A stretch of DNA of 64,000 nucleotides. Origin: Croceicoccus marinus (GTDB taxonomy: Bacteria > Pseudomonadota > Alphaproteobacteria > Sphingomonadales > Sphingomonadaceae). A program made the position numbers and the translations under genes. The DNA lies in the NCBI RefSeq assembly GCF_001661675.2, contig NZ_CP019602.1, forward strand, positions 1,761,501 through 1,825,500, read 5' to 3'. Positions within the stretch are counted from its first letter, which is position 1. Each line of letters begins with the position of its first letter. Of the stretch, positions 28,475-33,208 are shown piece after piece. The notes under the pieces were generated by a model. That model was not told where the DNA came from. It ran no database searches and saw only the letters and a list, made by a program, of their open reading frames with translations.

Positions 28475-29521
28475 TCAGGCCGCCTTGTCGCTCTCGCTTC
28501 CCGCTTCGTTCAGCGCATGCTTGCGGATGCAGTGGCGAAGCTGGTCGTAACTAAGCCCCAATGCTTCCGCCGCACGGCGCTGGTTCCAGCGGTGGCGGTC
28601 CAGCGCGGATTCGACGATGGCACGCTCATGCCCGTCGACCGCGGCGCGCAGGTCGGTAACGGCAGCGAAATCGAAAGCCGGCTTCAGTTCGACCGGTGGC
28701 AGCGCGTCCGGCCGCTGCGCGGGGCCGCGCGCCGAGGACTTGGGCGCCCATGGCGAATCGAACGGATCGAAGACGACCGCCCCGACCGGTGTGCGTCCAT
28801 CATCCCAGCGATAGACCGCGCGTTCGACGACATTGCGCAATTCACGCACGTTGCCGGGCCATGGATAGGCTTCCAGCTGTTCGATCACCTCTTCCGAAAA
28901 GCCCGGCCATTCCTCCCACATCAGTTCCGCCGCCATGCGCCGGCCGAAGAAATCGGCGATGACGGTGATGTCGCCCTCGCGTGCCCGCAAGGGTGGGAGA
29001 GTGATGACCTCGAAGCTCAACCGGTCGAGAAGGTCGGCCCTGAACTCGCCGCGTTCGGCCAGCGCGGGCAGATCCTCGTTGGTGGCAGCGACGATGCGAA
29101 CGTCGACCACCGTGGGACGCGACGCCCCGATGCGCGTAATCTCGCCGTATTCCACGGCTCTTAGCAGGCGTTCCTGGGCGGCCATCGACAGCGTGCCGAG
29201 TTCGTCGAGGAACAGGGTGCCGCCGTCGGCTTCCTCGAACCGGCCGGTCCGCGCCTTCGATGCTCCGGTGAAGGCACCTGCCTCGTGGCCGAACAATTCC
29301 GCCTCGATCAGCGTTTCGGGAAGAGCGGCGCAATTCATCACGACCAGCGGTTCGCCCCAGCGATCCGACAGGTGATGAAGCCGCTCGGCGATAAGTTCCT
29401 TGCCGGTTCCGCGCTCGCCGATGACCAGCACCGGGCGCGACAGGGCCGCCGCACGGCTGGCCCGCTCCACCGCGTCGAGAATGGCCTTAGACTGGCCGAC
29501 AAACTGCTTGCCCCGATCCAT
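28475..29521 (-). CDS. pspF: PspF, sigma-54 activator of the phage shock operon
   Basis: AAA+ enhancer-binding protein of 348 aa, without an N-terminal regulatory domain, as expected for PspF. Walker A GERGTGKE is at 35-42, the sigma-54 contact loop GAFTGA at 82-87, and Walker B GGTLFLDE at 100-107. The C-terminal Fis-type helix-turn-helix reads ALDRHRWNQRRAAEALGLSY. Start 29521 (MDRGKQFVGQ) is chosen because the family begins here. It is divergent from the psp operon, with a 152-bp control region holding a -24/-12 promoter. PspA normally inhibits PspF by direct binding. Confidence 0.95.
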   Translation of the reverse strand: MDRGKQFVGQSKAILDAVERASRAAALSRPVLVIGERGTGKELIAERLHHLSDRWGEPLVVMNCAALPETLIEAELFGHEAGAFTGASKARTGRFEEADGGTLFLDELGTLSMAAQERLLRAVEYGEITRIGASRPTVVDVRIVAATNEDLPALAERGEFRADLLDRLSFEVITLPPLRAREGDITVIADFFGRRMAAELMWEEWPGFSEEVIEQLEAYPWPGNVRELRNVVERAVYRWDDGRTPVGAVVFDPFDSPWAPKSSARGPAQRPDALPPVELKPAFDFAAVTDLRAAVDGHERAIVESALDRHRWNQRRAAEALGLSYDQLRHCIRKHALNEAGSESDKAA

Positions 29522-29544
29522 GCACCGGAAGTTAGCGCAGAATC

Positions 29545-29585
29545 CCAACTCTTGGCAATAAGTTCGCGGCTCGTCGCCAACTCTT
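29545..29585 (+). promoter_or_regulatory. Candidate PspF upstream activating sites (direct repeat)
   Basis: The 9-mer CCAACTCTT occurs at 29545-29553 and again at 29577-29585, 32 bp apart (about three helical turns). It lies 38-78 bp upstream of the -24 box and close to the pspF start. Spacing and position suit an enhancer bound by PspF, which could also autoregulate pspF. The assignment is inference. Confidence 0.5.
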
Positions 29586-29622
29586 CGGTTCAAATATCTG
29601 TTTTCTAAAGACTTCCTTGATT

Positions 29623-29638
29623 TGGCACGCTCTCTGCA
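29623..29638 (+). promoter_or_regulatory. Sigma-54 (-24/-12) promoter of the psp operon
   Basis: TGGCACG, 4 nt, CTGCA matches the consensus TGGCACG-N4-TTGCW with a single mismatch. It lies 36 bp upstream of the first small gene and opposite pspF, where a PspF-dependent promoter is expected. Confidence 0.88.
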
Positions 29639-29673: not shown

Positions 29674-29859
29674 ATGTTTAATTTTCGTCAATCCAGTACG
29701 ATCGGCCCAGTAGCCACCAGCCTGTTCGCTGCGATCGCGATGCTTTCGCTCAGCGCCTATGCGGTGCGCGACCTGGCCTGCTCGTTTCCGCCGGTCTGCG
29801 ACGTCAAGCTGGTATCGCCGGCCAAGGCCGCACCGGCCCTGGCTTTCGTGCTGGCCTGA
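29674..29859 (+). CDS. Small membrane or secreted protein heading the psp operon
   Basis: A 61-aa protein (MFNFRQSSTIGPVATS start), the first gene downstream of the sigma-54 promoter and 24 nt before pspA. It has one hydrophobic stretch (about 11-29) that could be a signal peptide or anchor, two cysteines (CSFPPVC), and a second hydrophobic end (AAPALAFVLA). I recognise no family. The ATG follows GTGGGGACATC. Its position makes it stress-induced with the psp genes. Confidence 0.62.
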   Translation: MFNFRQSSTIGPVATSLFAAIAMLSLSAYAVRDLACSFPPVCDVKLVSPAKAAPALAFVLA

Positions 29860-29883
29860 AGCTGATATCCCTGAGAGGACCGT

Positions 29884-30840
29884 ATGAACGACAAGAATGA
29901 GCTGACGCCCGAAACGGACCGCAAGCCGCCCGCCGCCGATGACGGCCGGAAGCTGTCCGATACGCCGTGGACCGACGACGAGGCTGCCGCGTCGCGTTTC
30001 GACCGCGAGGTGGCCCGGTTGATGACCGACCGCGAACGTGCCGAGAAGGCGGGGCGGGAAAGAAGTGAATCGCGCCGCCATCGCGACTATGATGACGATG
30101 AGCCGATCCGCTTTCGCGGCGGCAGCAGCCTGAGGCAGAACGGAGCCCAATTGATGGGAATATTTTCGCGCACCCGTGACATCATTGCCGCCAACTTCTC
30201 GGACATGATCGAGAAGGCCGACGATCCCGAAAAGATGATCCGCATGATCATCGTCGAGATGGAGGAAACGCTGGTCGAGGTCCGTGCAGGCGCCGCCCGC
30301 ACCATCGCCGACCAGAAGGAAATGCAGCGTCACGCGGTGAAGCTGGAACGGCTGCAGGAAGACTGGGCGGACAAGGCGCAGCTTGCGCTGTCCAAGGGCC
30401 GCGAGGACCTGGCCCGCGCCGCGCTGATGGAAAAGCGCAAGGCGACCGACCTGGCCAAGCAGCTGTCCGAGGAAATGGACGTGCTGGAGCAGAGCCTGCG
30501 CGCCAACGAGGAAGACATCGCCAAGCTGCAGCAGCGCCTGCGCGAGGCGCGGAGCCGGCAGTCGATGATCGCGGCCCGCCTGGAAAGCGCCGAGAACCGC
30601 GTCCGACTGCGCAAGCTGATGACGACCGAGCGTGTCGACGAAGCACTGGCCCGGTTCGAGATGCTGGAGCGCCGCGTCGATTACGCCGAAGGCCACGCCG
30701 ACGCGCTGGGCATGGCCATGAAGGGCGAGCCGTCGCTTGCCGAGCAGATCGAAGGGCTGTCCGCCGTCGACAAGGTCGACGAGGAACTCGAAGCGCTCAA
30801 GCGCTCGATGGGCGGCCAGAGCGAGAAGAAGGAGGACTGA
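29884..30840 (+). CDS. pspA: PspA with a 90-residue N-terminal extension
   Basis: Membrane-stress effector and PspF inhibitor, an ESCRT-III/Vipp1-family coiled-coil protein. The frame encodes 318 aa, but the canonical PspA start (MGIFSRTRDIIAANFSDM, the membrane-binding amphipathic helix) is internal at codon 91 (ATG 30154). From there 228 residues of coiled coil follow (EKADDPEKMIRMIIVEMEE, then LAKQLSEEMDVLEQSL). Both starts have a plausible Shine-Dalgarno: GAGAGGA before 29884 and GGAG before 30154. The extra 90 residues are polar and charged (DTPWTDDEAAASRFDREVAR) with no known domain. Two isoforms are possible. It lies 4 nt before pspB. Confidence 0.92.
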   Translation: MNDKNELTPETDRKPPAADDGRKLSDTPWTDDEAAASRFDREVARLMTDRERAEKAGRERSESRRHRDYDDDEPIRFRGGSSLRQNGAQLMGIFSRTRDIIAANFSDMIEKADDPEKMIRMIIVEMEETLVEVRAGAARTIADQKEMQRHAVKLERLQEDWADKAQLALSKGREDLARAALMEKRKATDLAKQLSEEMDVLEQSLRANEEDIAKLQQRLREARSRQSMIAARLESAENRVRLRKLMTTERVDEALARFEMLERRVDYAEGHADALGMAMKGEPSLAEQIEGLSAVDKVDEELEALKRSMGGQSEKKED

Positions 30841-30843
30841 CCC

Positions 30844-31134
30844 ATGGAAGGTGTGCTTGCAATTATATGTATTTTCGTCGTCCTTCCGGGCTTGGTCTTT
30901 CACTATGTGACCAAGTGGAAGACCGCGCCCACCCTGACCCAGGGTGACGAGGCGATGCTGGAGGAGCTCTACAAGCTCGCTCGCCGCCTCGACGACCGGA
31001 TGGATACGGTGGAGCGCCTTGTCGCTGCCGATAACGAGGAATTCTCCAAGCCGCGCCTGATCGCCGATCAGGAAGCCGACAATGTGAAGCTGGCCGAGCT
31101 GGAGCGCATGATGAAGGAAAGGAACGCACAATGA
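30844..31134 (+). CDS. pspB: Phage shock protein B
   Basis: A 96-aa inner-membrane protein: one N-terminal helix (about 4-22, GVLAIICIFVVLPGLVF), then a cytoplasmic coiled coil. In E. coli PspB pairs with PspC to relieve PspA inhibition of PspF. The family region LARRLDDRMDTVERLVAADN (about 45-64) is present. It starts 3 nt after pspA and overlaps pspC by 4 nt (ATGA), so the three are coupled. The C-terminal third is longer than in enteric PspB (~75 aa). Confidence 0.9.
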   Translation: MEGVLAIICIFVVLPGLVFHYVTKWKTAPTLTQGDEAMLEELYKLARRLDDRMDTVERLVAADNEEFSKPRLIADQEADNVKLAELERMMKERNAQ

Positions 31135-31508
31135 GCAGCACCGAACGTACCCGCTTCTACCGCGACAAGGTGAACGGCAAGTTCCTGGGCGTCAGTGCGG
31201 GCCTTGCCGACTATACCGGGATCGACGCGATCTGGATCCGCCTTGGCTTCCTGATTGCCACGATCACGATGGGCTGGCCGATCCTGATCTATATCGCGAT
31301 GGGCATGATGGCACCGAAGAAGCCCGAACACCTCTACACCGACCGCAAGGAACAGCAGTTCTGGCAGGGCGTCCGCCAGTCGCCGACCCGCTCGGCGCGC
31401 GAGGTGAAGGCCCGGTTCCGCGACATCGACCGCCGCCTCGCCCATGTCGAGGAATATTACGTAAGCGGCAATCGCCAGCTTTCCGACGAGATCGAGAAGC
31501 TGCGCTGA
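31131..31508 (+). CDS. pspC: Phage shock protein C
   Basis: A 125-aa inner-membrane sensor with the PspC domain FYRDKVNGKFLGVSAGLADY (about 9-28), then IDAIWIRLGFLIATITMG and a second hydrophobic segment to residue 61. The cytoplasmic tail ends RRLAHVEEYYVSGNRQLSDE (101-120) and IEKLR. This final 25 residues resembles the C-termini of the four following small proteins. A 12-bp perfect duplication directly follows the stop. Confidence 0.93.
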   Translation: MSSTERTRFYRDKVNGKFLGVSAGLADYTGIDAIWIRLGFLIATITMGWPILIYIAMGMMAPKKPEHLYTDRKEQQFWQGVRQSPTRSAREVKARFRDIDRRLAHVEEYYVSGNRQLSDEIEKLR

Positions 31509-31532
31509 GGCCCGGCACCCGGCCCGGCACCC
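31509..31532. repeat. 12-bp tandem duplication after pspC
   Basis: GGCCCGGCACCC occurs twice head-to-tail (31509-31520 and 31521-31532), beginning at the base after the pspC stop codon. Confidence 0.85.
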
Positions 31533-31561
31533 ATCAGGGCCCAGATCGAAAGGCTTGAAAC

Positions 31562-31849
31562 ATGGCAGACGAACTTGCTCTTCTGATACCGCTTGCCCCC
31601 TTCATCATGATCTGCCTGATCGTGTGGACCAAGCACCAGTCCAAGATGGCCGAACTGAAAATGAACGCCACCGCGGAAAAGGCGGCGCAATATGCGCAGC
31701 ATACCGCCCAGCTGGAAGAGCGGGTCCGCGTTCTGGAGCGCATCATCACCGACAAGGGCACCGACATCGCACGCCAGATCGAGGCGCTGCGCGAGGAGGA
31801 AAGCGATGCGCGCCTCAATGCCCCCGTCAATCCGCGTCACGAGGTGTAG
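31562..31849 (+). CDS. PspB-like small single-pass membrane protein (1)
   Basis: A 95-aa protein. The N-terminal helix is about 5-22 (LALLIPLAPFIMICLIVW), followed by a basic/Ala-rich linker and the segment LEERVRVLERIITDKGTDIA (51-70) with QIEALRE. This is the same pattern as the PspB and PspC tails: R(V/L/M)xxxERI(V/I)TD. The layout (short or no periplasmic part, cytoplasmic coiled coil) equals PspB. It is in the psp operon, 53 nt after pspC and 3 nt before the next gene. A role as accessory PspB paralogue is inferred. Confidence 0.75.
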   Translation: MADELALLIPLAPFIMICLIVWTKHQSKMAELKMNATAEKAAQYAQHTAQLEERVRVLERIITDKGTDIARQIEALREEESDARLNAPVNPRHEV

Positions 31850-31852
31850 GCG

Positions 31853-32206
31853 ATGGAAGAGCTGATCACTCCTGCCGTGCTGGGCGTCGGCGTCGTGTCC
31901 TTTGCGATCGCATGGGTGGTGAATACCGCGATCCGCGTCAGACATGGCTATCCGCTGGAAAACAGCTGGGGCAAGTCCGTCTATCCGCAGAAGGACAAAG
32001 AGACGGCCGAGCGGCTGAAGCTGGCGAGCCAGGAAAACGCGCAGCTTCGCGCCGAGCTGGGTTCGGTCAAGGACCGGCTCGCCAACGTGGAGCGGATCGT
32101 GACCGACAGCGGCTATCGCCTGACGCACGAGATCGAGGCGCTGCGTTCGTCCGAGGCGCGTTCGCCGGAAATGCATTCGCCTGACAGGGAAGGACAGTTC
32201 AAATGA
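31853..32206 (+). CDS. PspB-like small single-pass membrane protein (2)
   Basis: A 117-aa protein. The membrane helix is about 7-26 (PAVLGVGVVSFAIAWVVN), followed by a polar linker (HGYPLENSWGKSVYPQKDKE) and a coiled coil ending VKDRLANVERIVTDSGYRLT (72-91) and HEIEALRSSE. The block NVERIVTDSGYRLTHEIEAL closely parallels the PspC tail (HVEEYYVSGNRQLSDEIEKL). It overlaps the next gene by 4 nt. The family is unnamed as far as I can tell. Confidence 0.75.
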   Translation: MEELITPAVLGVGVVSFAIAWVVNTAIRVRHGYPLENSWGKSVYPQKDKETAERLKLASQENAQLRAELGSVKDRLANVERIVTDSGYRLTHEIEALRSSEARSPEMHSPDREGQFK

Positions 32207-32475
32207 GTTTCTGGACCGCCATCATCCTGATCGTGCTGATCATTTCGGTCACGCAGATGATCAAGGGTCGGCGCGATGCAAGGGACGGCCTGTACACGGA
32301 CAGGAGCGGCACGCTGCGGCCGCGTCCGGACGGCCTGTCGCCCGAGGACGAGGAGCAGCTTCGCGCCGAGATCGCCGAGCTGAAGGAACGGGTGCATGTG
32401 CTGGAGCGCATCGCGACCGACGAACGCCAGAAGCTCGGCCTTGCCGAAGAGATCGAGCTGCTGCGCGACCGCTGA
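32203..32475 (+). CDS. PspB-like small single-pass membrane protein (3)
   Basis: A 90-aa protein beginning MSFWTAIILIVLIISVTQMI (membrane helix 3-20), then a basic, Pro-containing linker and the coiled coil ELKERVHVLERIATDERQKL (59-78) with AEEIELLRD. It shares the repeated C-terminal signature with its neighbours. It starts inside the end of the preceding gene (ATGA overlap) and is 14 nt before the next. Topology and operon place it in the psp response. Confidence 0.75.
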   Translation: MSFWTAIILIVLIISVTQMIKGRRDARDGLYTDRSGTLRPRPDGLSPEDEEQLRAEIAELKERVHVLERIATDERQKLGLAEEIELLRDR

Positions 32476-32489
32476 GAGGAGGCTGATCC

Positions 32490-32741
32490 ATGAGCTTCGA
32501 AGTCAGTTCCATGGCCCTGTTCGCACTGGCGGGGCTGACCATCGTGACCGCCGCTTTGCTGTATGGCTGGCAGGGCTGGCTGGCATTGAAGATGCGCGAG
32601 GCTGAGATGGGCCACGGGGAATTCGCGCCCTCGCCCGCCCGCGATGTCGGCGATGCGCCCGCCGCCGCGCGGATCGAACTGGCCGATCTGAAGGAACGGG
32701 TCCGCAGGCTGGAAGCGATCGCCAGCGGGGTCGACCTTTAA
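32490..32741 (+). CDS. PspB-like small single-pass membrane protein (4)
   Basis: An 83-aa protein and the last member of the array. The membrane helix is about 8-28 (MALFALAGLTIVTAALLYGW), the linker is Ala/Pro-rich, and the signature is shortened: ADLKERVRRLEAIASGVDL (65-83). It lacks the TD and EIExLR continuation, so it is the most diverged or truncated copy. A good GAGAGGAGG precedes the ATG at 32490. It ends 41 nt before sufE. Confidence 0.72.
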   Translation: MSFEVSSMALFALAGLTIVTAALLYGWQGWLALKMREAEMGHGEFAPSPARDVGDAPAAARIELADLKERVRRLEAIASGVDL

Positions 32742-32782: not shown

Positions 32783-33208
32783 ATGCGATCCATCGACGAT
32801 ATTGCCGAGGAATACGAATTCCTCGAAGGCGACGAGCGTTACCGGCTGCTGATCGAGCTTGGCCGCGAGCTGGAACCCATGCCCGCCGCGCTGAAGACCG
32901 AGGCGACGCAGGTCAAGGGCTGCTCCGCCGCGGTGTGGGTCTATCCGACGCGTGCCGCTTCGGACGATGGCGGGAACCGGCTGCATTTCATGGCCGACAG
33001 CAATGCCGCGATCACCAAGGGCATCGTCGCGCTTGTCATCGCCGCAGTGCAGGACCGCCCGGCTGCCGAAGTGGCGGACACCGACATAGAGGGTGCGCTG
33101 GCGCCCTTCGACCTGCGCAACCAGCTGTCGTCCAACCGGACGCAGGGCGTACCCAACATGATCGCGCTGATCCGCGAGACCGCGTCGCGGATCGCTGCGG
33201 AAGGCTGA
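32783..33208 (+). CDS. sufE: SufE-family sulfur acceptor protein
   Basis: Takes persulfide sulfur from the cysteine desulfurase SufS for iron-sulfur cluster assembly. A 141-aa protein with active-site Cys47 in VKGCSAAVWVYP, plus YRLLIELGRELEPMP and LAPFDLRNQLSSNRTQGVPN, all family motifs. Start 32783 (MRSIDDIAEEYEF) fits SufE length; an upstream ATG at 32747 adds Ala-rich residues only. No other suf genes are adjacent, so it may trail the psp operon or have its own promoter. Confidence 0.93.
   Translation: MRSIDDIAEEYEFLEGDERYRLLIELGRELEPMPAALKTEATQVKGCSAAVWVYPTRAASDDGGNRLHFMADSNAAITKGIVALVIAAVQDRPAAEVADTDIEGALAPFDLRNQLSSNRTQGVPNMIALIRETASRIAAEG

Follow-up and report, generated by a model that had tools for sequence, protein, structure and literature searches.

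A conserved array of small genes, several resembling the tail of PspC, follows pspABC in sphingomonads

In the 64,000-nucleotide stretch of Croceicoccus marinus DNA analysed here (contig NZ_CP019602.1, positions 1,761,501 to 1,825,500; the window), the interval between pspC of the phage-shock (psp) operon and sufE consists of four small open reading frames (ORFs), X1 to X4 (31562-32741), as read from the ORF list and its translations. X1-X3 are one family whose similarity to PspC covers the second transmembrane (TM) helix and the tail, and of 90 psp loci sampled from the same bacterial family, 89 have one to eight X genes at this position. We propose, with a probability of roughly 0.5, that X1-X3, and via them X4, are lineage-specific, tail-only paralogs of the psp sensor proteins that act as extra adaptors for PspB, PspC and PspA. 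The array itself is real, conserved and little recorded, and is a variant of a known system.

31562-31849, plus strand: X1, 95 amino acids (aa), a TM helix and a coiled coil, paralog resembling the PspC tail and PspB
31853-32206, plus strand: X2, 117 aa, a TM helix, a linker of the KHGYPLE-WG type and a coiled coil, paralog resembling the PspC tail
32203-32475, plus strand: X3, 90 aa, a TM helix and a coiled coil
32490-32741, plus strand: X4, 83 aa, last gene of the array

As the original prediction had described, these are four consecutive, tightly packed genes after pspABC, with a 3-nt gap between X1 and X2, a 4-nt ATGA overlap between X2 and X3 and a 14-nt gap between X3 and X4; 53 nt separate pspC from X1. 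The signatures it quoted are all present in the translations, and the interval it gave, starting at 29674, also includes a 61-aa ORF ahead of pspA that its text passes over. Its statement that three of the proteins end in EI-xx-LR needs amending in detail, as X1 has QIEALR instead and 18-19 residues follow the motif in X1 and X2. The window comes from a genome of 4.1 Mb, and its nearest named protein relatives are from Croceicoccus.

Profile-profile comparison with hhalign joined X1, X2 and X3 into one family (E <=2e-18; X3 with X1/X2 >99% probability). X2 matched PspC at 96.2-96.5% (E 1e-9 to 3e-9) over about 80 columns corresponding to PspC 45-128, that is, the second TM helix (TM2) and the tail, and the corresponding probabilities were 88-94% for X1 and 92-94% for X3. 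PspB was matched by X1 at 86-91% over 65-66 columns, by X2 at 86-90% over 32-60 columns and by X3 at 19-26%, values to be read against a noise level of 57% set by the FtsB-X2 comparison; the PspB and PspC profiles match each other at 28-81%. With the TM segments removed, the PspC tail still matched the tails of X1, X2 and X3 at 89-96%, and the PspB tail matched those of X1 at 66-75%, X2 at 80-90% and X3 at 21-41%. Member-by-member scans with 18950 NCBIfam models (E up to 0.1) returned PspC for 19 of 28 X1 members and PspB for 14 of 28, PspC (20/30), Npun_F5560 (9/30), PspB (8/30) and GvpT (7/30) for X2 members, and PspB (16/26) and PspC (7/26) for X3 members; for each of the three types the most frequent model was that of PspC or PspB. 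In a Pfam scan of X1 members, PspB was found in 10 of 28 and the next family in 2 of 28.

In searches within the genome of the window, the PspC-tail profile ranked PspC first and X2 second (E 0.009), with unrelated places from 0.56 onward, and the X1 profile recovered X1, X2, X3 and X4 (7e-28 to 0.016) before one place at 1.79. Pfam PspB found pspB, X1 (0.024), two unrelated places (0.19 and 0.24), X3 (0.57) and one more. Individually, X1 of the window scored 17.7 bits with PF06667 (cut-off 25.6) and 19.2 bits with TIGR02976 (cut-off 51.7), and X3 scored 12.6 and 11.1 bits; X2 and X4 had no match to either PspB model at E up to 1. X2 matched the PspC model TIGR02978 at 22.4 bits over positions 58-121 (E 8.4e-5), below the cut-off, and none of X1-X4 matched PF04024, the N-terminal PspC domain, at E up to 1. 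These comparisons support the assignment of X1-X3 as probable relatives of the PspC TM2 and tail, with X1 and X2 also resembling PspB, more weakly. The original prediction had proposed a family built on the C-terminal helix of PspB and PspC. X1-X3 do share that of PspC, and X1 and X2, more weakly, that of PspB; for X4 no link to either was found, and the description is incomplete in that the similarity to PspC also covers TM2. Outside the window, the same genome holds a second short PspC-domain gene, a 79-aa open frame at G000:C1:761520-761687.

Coiled-coil composition can give part of this signal, because FtsB, used as a coiled-coil control, reaches 57% with X2. The X proteins might accordingly be regarded as generic small TM plus coiled-coil proteins that share no descent with PspB or PspC and resemble them through heptad composition. 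Matches of single X members to FtsL models (one X1, one X2 and up to three X3 members) and to Pfam DivIC (1 of 28 X1 members) are in keeping with this, as are the PDB matches, which are generic coiled coils. In contrast, a PspC or PspB model tops the scans of X1, X2 and X3 members, whereas NCBIfam PspB or PspC appeared in 0 of 30 FtsB control members, on which basis a generic coiled coil was rejected for X1-X3. The FtsB profile stayed below 1% with PspB and PspC and ranged from 3 to 57% with X1-X4, so that X1-X3 are closer to PspC (88-96.5%) than to FtsB, and no NCBIfam FtsB model was among the matches listed, which covered 25 of 31 families for X1 and 25 of 26 for X3. Reversed-profile controls were mostly <12%, with 23% for PspC against reversed X2. 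Two extra genes from another family of the class, f51, described below, have E values of 4e-6 with the PspC profile and 3e-9 with that of PspB, which also argues against mere composition, and we regard a purely generic origin as very improbable. Similarity beyond a generic coiled coil, the test named in the prediction, is present in X1-X3; X4 matches X1-X3 alone.

X4 reaches 86-93% with X1 and X3 and 45-78% with X2 (hhalign). The PspC TM2 and tail segment matched by X1-X3 has no match in X4, and a PspB or PspC NCBIfam model was found in 0 of 22 X4 members. It is conceivable that some X genes, X4 above all, act outside the Psp response, for instance in connection with sufE, and merely share its promoter. 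X4 lacks PspB/PspC similarity, is last in every locus that has it and is followed by sufE in most loci; since its profile is related to those of X1 and X3, we give this idea hardly any weight.

The array recurs in nearly all sampled psp loci of the family. Of the 99 family genomes sampled, 92 have a PspC match; the 89 loci with long PspC matches were fetched and, with the window, make up 90, two genomes with weak or partial matches (G040 and G097) being excluded. For genes elsewhere than in the window, a simple scripted rule fixed the start codons. Iterated profiles identified 381 X genes across the 90 loci, with zero copies in one locus, one in 4, two in 7, three in 9, four in 31, five in 23, six in 9, seven in 5 and eight in one; for L095 and L116, overlapping pieces of a single gene entered the counts, which are possibly one too high. 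At the G040 locus (L194), outside this count, pspA and a short pspC are accompanied by two X-like genes. Likewise, of 66 named loci retrieved through PspC alone (Croceicoccus, Novosphingobium, Sphingomonas, Sphingobium, Croceibacterium, Altererythrobacter and others), 65 carry at least one X gene, the sole exception, L292, stopping 248 bases past the start of the PspC match. Croceicoccus mobilis Ery22 (L229) has three X genes, Novosphingobium subterraneum DSM 12447 (L247) five and Novosphingobium nitrogenifigens DSM 19370 (L282) one. Absence of the genes from related psp loci, which the prediction had set as a refuting test, is therefore excluded, and its claim of a tandem family is supported; the recurrence of related arrays at this position is more than a chance finding. 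A mis-calling of the four ORFs was rejected by their conservation across loci and by the codon bias of change. Against Croceicoccus sp. EAC98 (L228), the ratio of nonsynonymous to synonymous change (pN/pS) was 0.04 for X1, 0.11 for X2, 0.38 for X3 and 0.27 for X4, with 0.04-0.12 for pspA, pspB and pspC; against the more distant L039 it was 0.39, 0.28, 0.50 and 0.58, respectively, near the 0.35-0.46 of the three psp genes.

Composition of the array follows a pattern. X1-type genes occur in 68, X2-type in 71, X3-type in 85 and X4 in 82 of the 90 loci, with varying numbers of X1-X3. X4 is single and last in 82/82 loci having it, X3 stands immediately before it in 78 of 79 loci with both, and sufE follows in the same orientation in 80 of 90. 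Paralogs within a locus have a median identity of 30%, and only 2 of 718 pairs reach at least 60%. The X types look older than the genera, because paralogs of one locus are this well diverged while X2 of the window and of the same-genus genome L039 share 76% identity. Tentatively, the array may be modular, with a conserved X3-X4 core and variable X1 and X2 tail-only PspC paralogs that would combine in varied ways with PspB and PspC into several different PspA-docking complexes; this could serve multi-input or multi-site membrane repair, the number of parts evolving by tandem duplication.

A TM-like stretch near the N-terminus was predicted in 365 of 381 X proteins, and in 362 of these 365 lysine and arginine are more numerous after it than before. 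Because of the positive-inside rule, the X proteins are predicted to be N-out and C-in, with one N-terminal TM helix and a cytoplasmic coiled coil. AlphaFold2 modelled X1 and X2 as a TM helix followed by a long helix (helices 9-63 and 68-86 with a break at a TD motif in X1, 7-31 and 49-102 in X2) at a local confidence (predicted local distance difference test, pLDDT) of 85. PDB sequence searches with the X1 and X2 profiles yielded coiled coils and other unrelated chains, with a best E of 0.004.

The surroundings of the array show the features of a Psp regulon, namely a sigma54 site, a divergent pspF and packed genes:

28475..29593, minus strand: pspF, divergent sigma54 activator (TIGR02974, 468.8 bits, cut-off 443.55)
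29623..29638, plus strand: sigma54-type promoter TGGCACG-CTCT-CTGCA, 11 of 12 consensus positions
29674..29859, plus strand: ORF0, lying between the promoter and pspA and encoding a small hydrophobic protein of 61 aa, with relatives by tblastn
29884..30840, plus strand: pspA (TIGR02977, 266.7 bits for 30154 onward, over cut-off)
30844-31134, plus strand: pspB (TIGR02976, 78.5 bits, over cut-off; PF06667)
31131-31508, plus strand: pspC (TIGR02978, 118.7 bits, over cut-off; PF04024), joined to pspB by an ATGA overlap
32783..33208, plus strand: sufE, the gene after the array (PF02657)

In 76 of 89 family loci pspA is preceded by a sigma54 -24/-12 site with at least 11 of 12 positions, and none of this quality was found in the 650 bp after pspC (0/89). 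An internal sigma54 promoter for the array was also rejected at a threshold of at least 10 of 12 positions over the same 650 bp (0/89 loci). No terminator-like site was found on the plus strand between pspC and X1, the sole one on this strand being at 31877, inside X2. X1-X4 are thus probably made from the PspF/sigma54 operon along with PspA, PspB and PspC. No known structural RNA was found at the array; two tRNAs elsewhere in the window were the only ones detected.

The region before pspA has features of its own. Relatives of ORF0 by tblastn were found in the Croceicoccus loci L227, L228 and L229 and, weakly, in L102. In 33 of 76 promoter-positive loci a protein of about 50 aa, of one family (consensus MyDRrFFqsKLGqAA.ASiAAM.aFVALS), is encoded between promoter and pspA; ORF0 has a similar place and size, yet was not matched by the profile of this family. 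The pspA gene itself has a putative start that would add a charged N-terminal extension of 90 aa (29884-30153) before the methionine at 30154, and an in-frame extension of at least 20 aa is seen in 51 of 76 loci.

Outside the family, X-like genes become sparse. The X2 profile matches 13 of 289 class genomes (4 in the family) and 30 of 299 phylum genomes (13 in the family), at 43.4 bits or less outside versus up to 137 inside, although a few of the outside matches span most of the profile. Some look like chance matches to long coiled-coil proteins; others are TM plus tail proteins of about 64-99 aa that are matched by the X1 and X3 profiles. For one such protein of about 80 aa the named relatives belong to Thalassotalea, Colwellia and Pseudoalteromonas and are annotated as hypothetical, as Phage shock protein B (UniRef) or C (JGI) and once as FtsB (JGI). 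Among 20 loci of 10 kb around such proteins, 17 had no psp gene among the three genes on each side, and the other three had no listed X gene. The X1/X3 relatives outside the class in L209-L226 (about 70-99 aa, some in longer called frames) stand alone; in L211 and L224 such a gene lies opposite a gene pair that by eye resembles an extracytoplasmic function (ECF) sigma factor and its partner. In family f146, L162 and L198 carry a tandem X-like pair of 76-79 and 64 aa (about 1380-1872 on the match strand), and G279 of this family has a pspABC locus about 80 kb from its X-like pair on the same contig.

PspC itself was matched in 32 of 289 class genomes, 28 of them outside the family; 26 of these loci were read about 1.5 kb to each side, and psp genes were seen in 24. 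Two genomes of one f51 genus (G271 and G366; L308 and L309) show a pair of additional genes immediately behind pspC, one PspC-tail-like of 78-80 aa (4e-6) and one PspB-like of 73 aa (3e-9 and 5e-9), and are possible intermediates toward the sphingomonad array. G341 has a second PspB/PspC-like pair at its psp locus, and 21 of the 24 psp loci, including that of another f51 genome, showed no extra gene at E 1e-3. In family f14, one psp locus (L299, 820-1857 on the match strand) carries two PspB-like and two PspC-like genes in alternation. Small duplications of sensor parts occur elsewhere, and the large array is found only in sphingomonads within this sample.

As extra adaptors, the X proteins would combine one TM helix with an amphipathic tail of the PspC type, the helix that contacts PspA, without the N-terminal PspC domain. 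They would accumulate once the Psp response is on, from the same operon as PspA, PspB and PspC, pair with PspB, PspC and one another through their TM helices and coiled coils, and use their tails to dock PspA at the membrane, like the Escherichia coli fragment PspC40-119. More, or more diverse, PspA docking complexes might then prolong the response or place PspA without relying on the N-terminal part of PspC, with the adaptors acting downstream of or beside stress sensing. We favour this model because X1-X3 have the extent of PspC40-119 (TM plus tail). According to the accessible text of PMC3068692, overproduction of that fragment induces psp even without PspB, it contacts PspA through a leucine zipper, and its TM part suffices for the contact with PspB.

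Two other roles within the membrane-stress response were weighed. As an effector scaffold, hetero-oligomeric X coiled coils would stabilise the inner membrane or block leaky pores largely without PspA, as might be expected from up to eight well-diverged copies per locus, which fit a multi-part assembly, and from out-of-class relatives lacking close psp genes; in Yersinia, PspB and PspC are by themselves enough to counter secretin leakage, as stated in the available part of PMC5596341. We consider such a scaffold unlikely, since in E. coli the tail common to X and PspC is the part that contacts PspA and the location within the psp operon suggests PspA-linked work. Less likely still, the X proteins could be brakes or decoys, bound to the tails of PspC or PspB or sequestering PspA, that provide delayed negative feedback after induction. 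Probable expression from the same operon after activation would suit this role, and a 2016 study by Flores-Kim and Darwin reportedly found that cytoplasmic PspB-PspC contacts silence the Yersinia Psp response. In E. coli, however, overproduced PspC40-119 activates rather than inhibits.

Several points weigh against the adaptor model. Stress-dependent induction at low level in E. coli was seen with full-length PspC only, not with 40-119 (PMC3068692, accessible text), and no expression, interaction or knockout data on X genes were found in the literature. None of X1-X4 in the window reaches a PspB or PspC cut-off, and hhalign does not directly connect X4 with PspB or PspC (X4-PspB below 1%). Besides the 57% of FtsB with X2, the X-PspB scores of 35-40 are only modestly above the FtsB-X2 score of 30, the profiles of PspC and of FtsB each reach about 70% when compared with their reversed versions, the unrelated Npun_F5560 outnumbers PspB among X2 members, and two unrelated places outrank X3 in the genome search with Pfam PspB. 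The AlphaFold2 models of X1 and X2 have a low predicted template modelling score (0.41-0.42), and that of X2 is without a PDB match (Foldseek, one match, E 8.5). Finally, no psp genes were found within about 1.5 kb of the out-of-class relatives of about 80 aa, so the X fold does not always work with psp.

The array has left few traces in the literature. The accessible text of Ravi et al. 2024 (PMC11237479) devotes one line to PspB duplicates in the psp operon, with AOL22920.1 as the example. UniRef names some X1 homologs 'Phage shock protein B', so that the prediction's remark that no named family exists is mostly right, with these two exceptions. The accession series of AOL22920.1 is, we presume, that of Erythrobacter. 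Such genes go unmentioned in the available part of Popp et al. 2022 (PMC9239133), a gene-neighbourhood survey by domain hidden Markov models (HMMs); surveys of this kind are likely to miss X1-X4 of the window because none of them reaches a Pfam or NCBIfam cut-off. Zymomonas papers, where accessible, mention pspABC and the hypothetical ZMO1062, not this array, and no other paper on X genes, nor sphingomonad psp expression work covering them, was found in a search that covered few subscription journals. Psp is a textbook membrane-stress response in which the X genes may be an overlooked layer, and how PspB and PspC sense stress and hand over PspA are stated open questions (PMC5596341, available part).

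Compared with known systems, X1-X3 are closest to PspC (TIGR02978; PF04024), to whose TM2 and tail they align over 52-84 columns, up to PspC 43-128, and with which they share the R-L-x-x-V/L-E ... L-x-x-E-I-E-x-L-R ending; unlike PspC, the X proteins have no N-terminal PspC domain and one TM helix instead of two, and those of the window are 83-117 aa long and below cut-off. PspB (TIGR02976/PF06667) resembles them in its single N-terminal TM helix and a coiled coil ending in [DE]R-x-x-x-V/L-E-R-I/L, X1 aligning over profile positions 1-69, whereas X1-X3 carry the PspC-like ending (E/Q)IExLR, which is absent from PspB. The PspB duplicates of Ravi et al. 2024 are likewise extra PspB-like genes in a psp operon; the text of PMC11237479, as far as accessible, gives no family name, PspC-tail relation or array, and its supplement may hold more. 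The stand-alone proteins of about 80 aa share with X the TM helix and a tail of the LKERVxxLEKIVTD type and differ in having no psp gene within about 1.5 kb. PspC40-119 of E. coli has the same extent as X1-X3, TM plus tail and no N-terminal domain, but is a laboratory truncation rather than a natural gene (PMC3068692, accessible text). Sphingomonads thus carry, at 1-8 per locus, natural tail-only PspC-like genes that match the laboratory fragment which uncouples PspA binding from sensing, and the X array can be seen as a natural experiment in splitting the Psp sensor.

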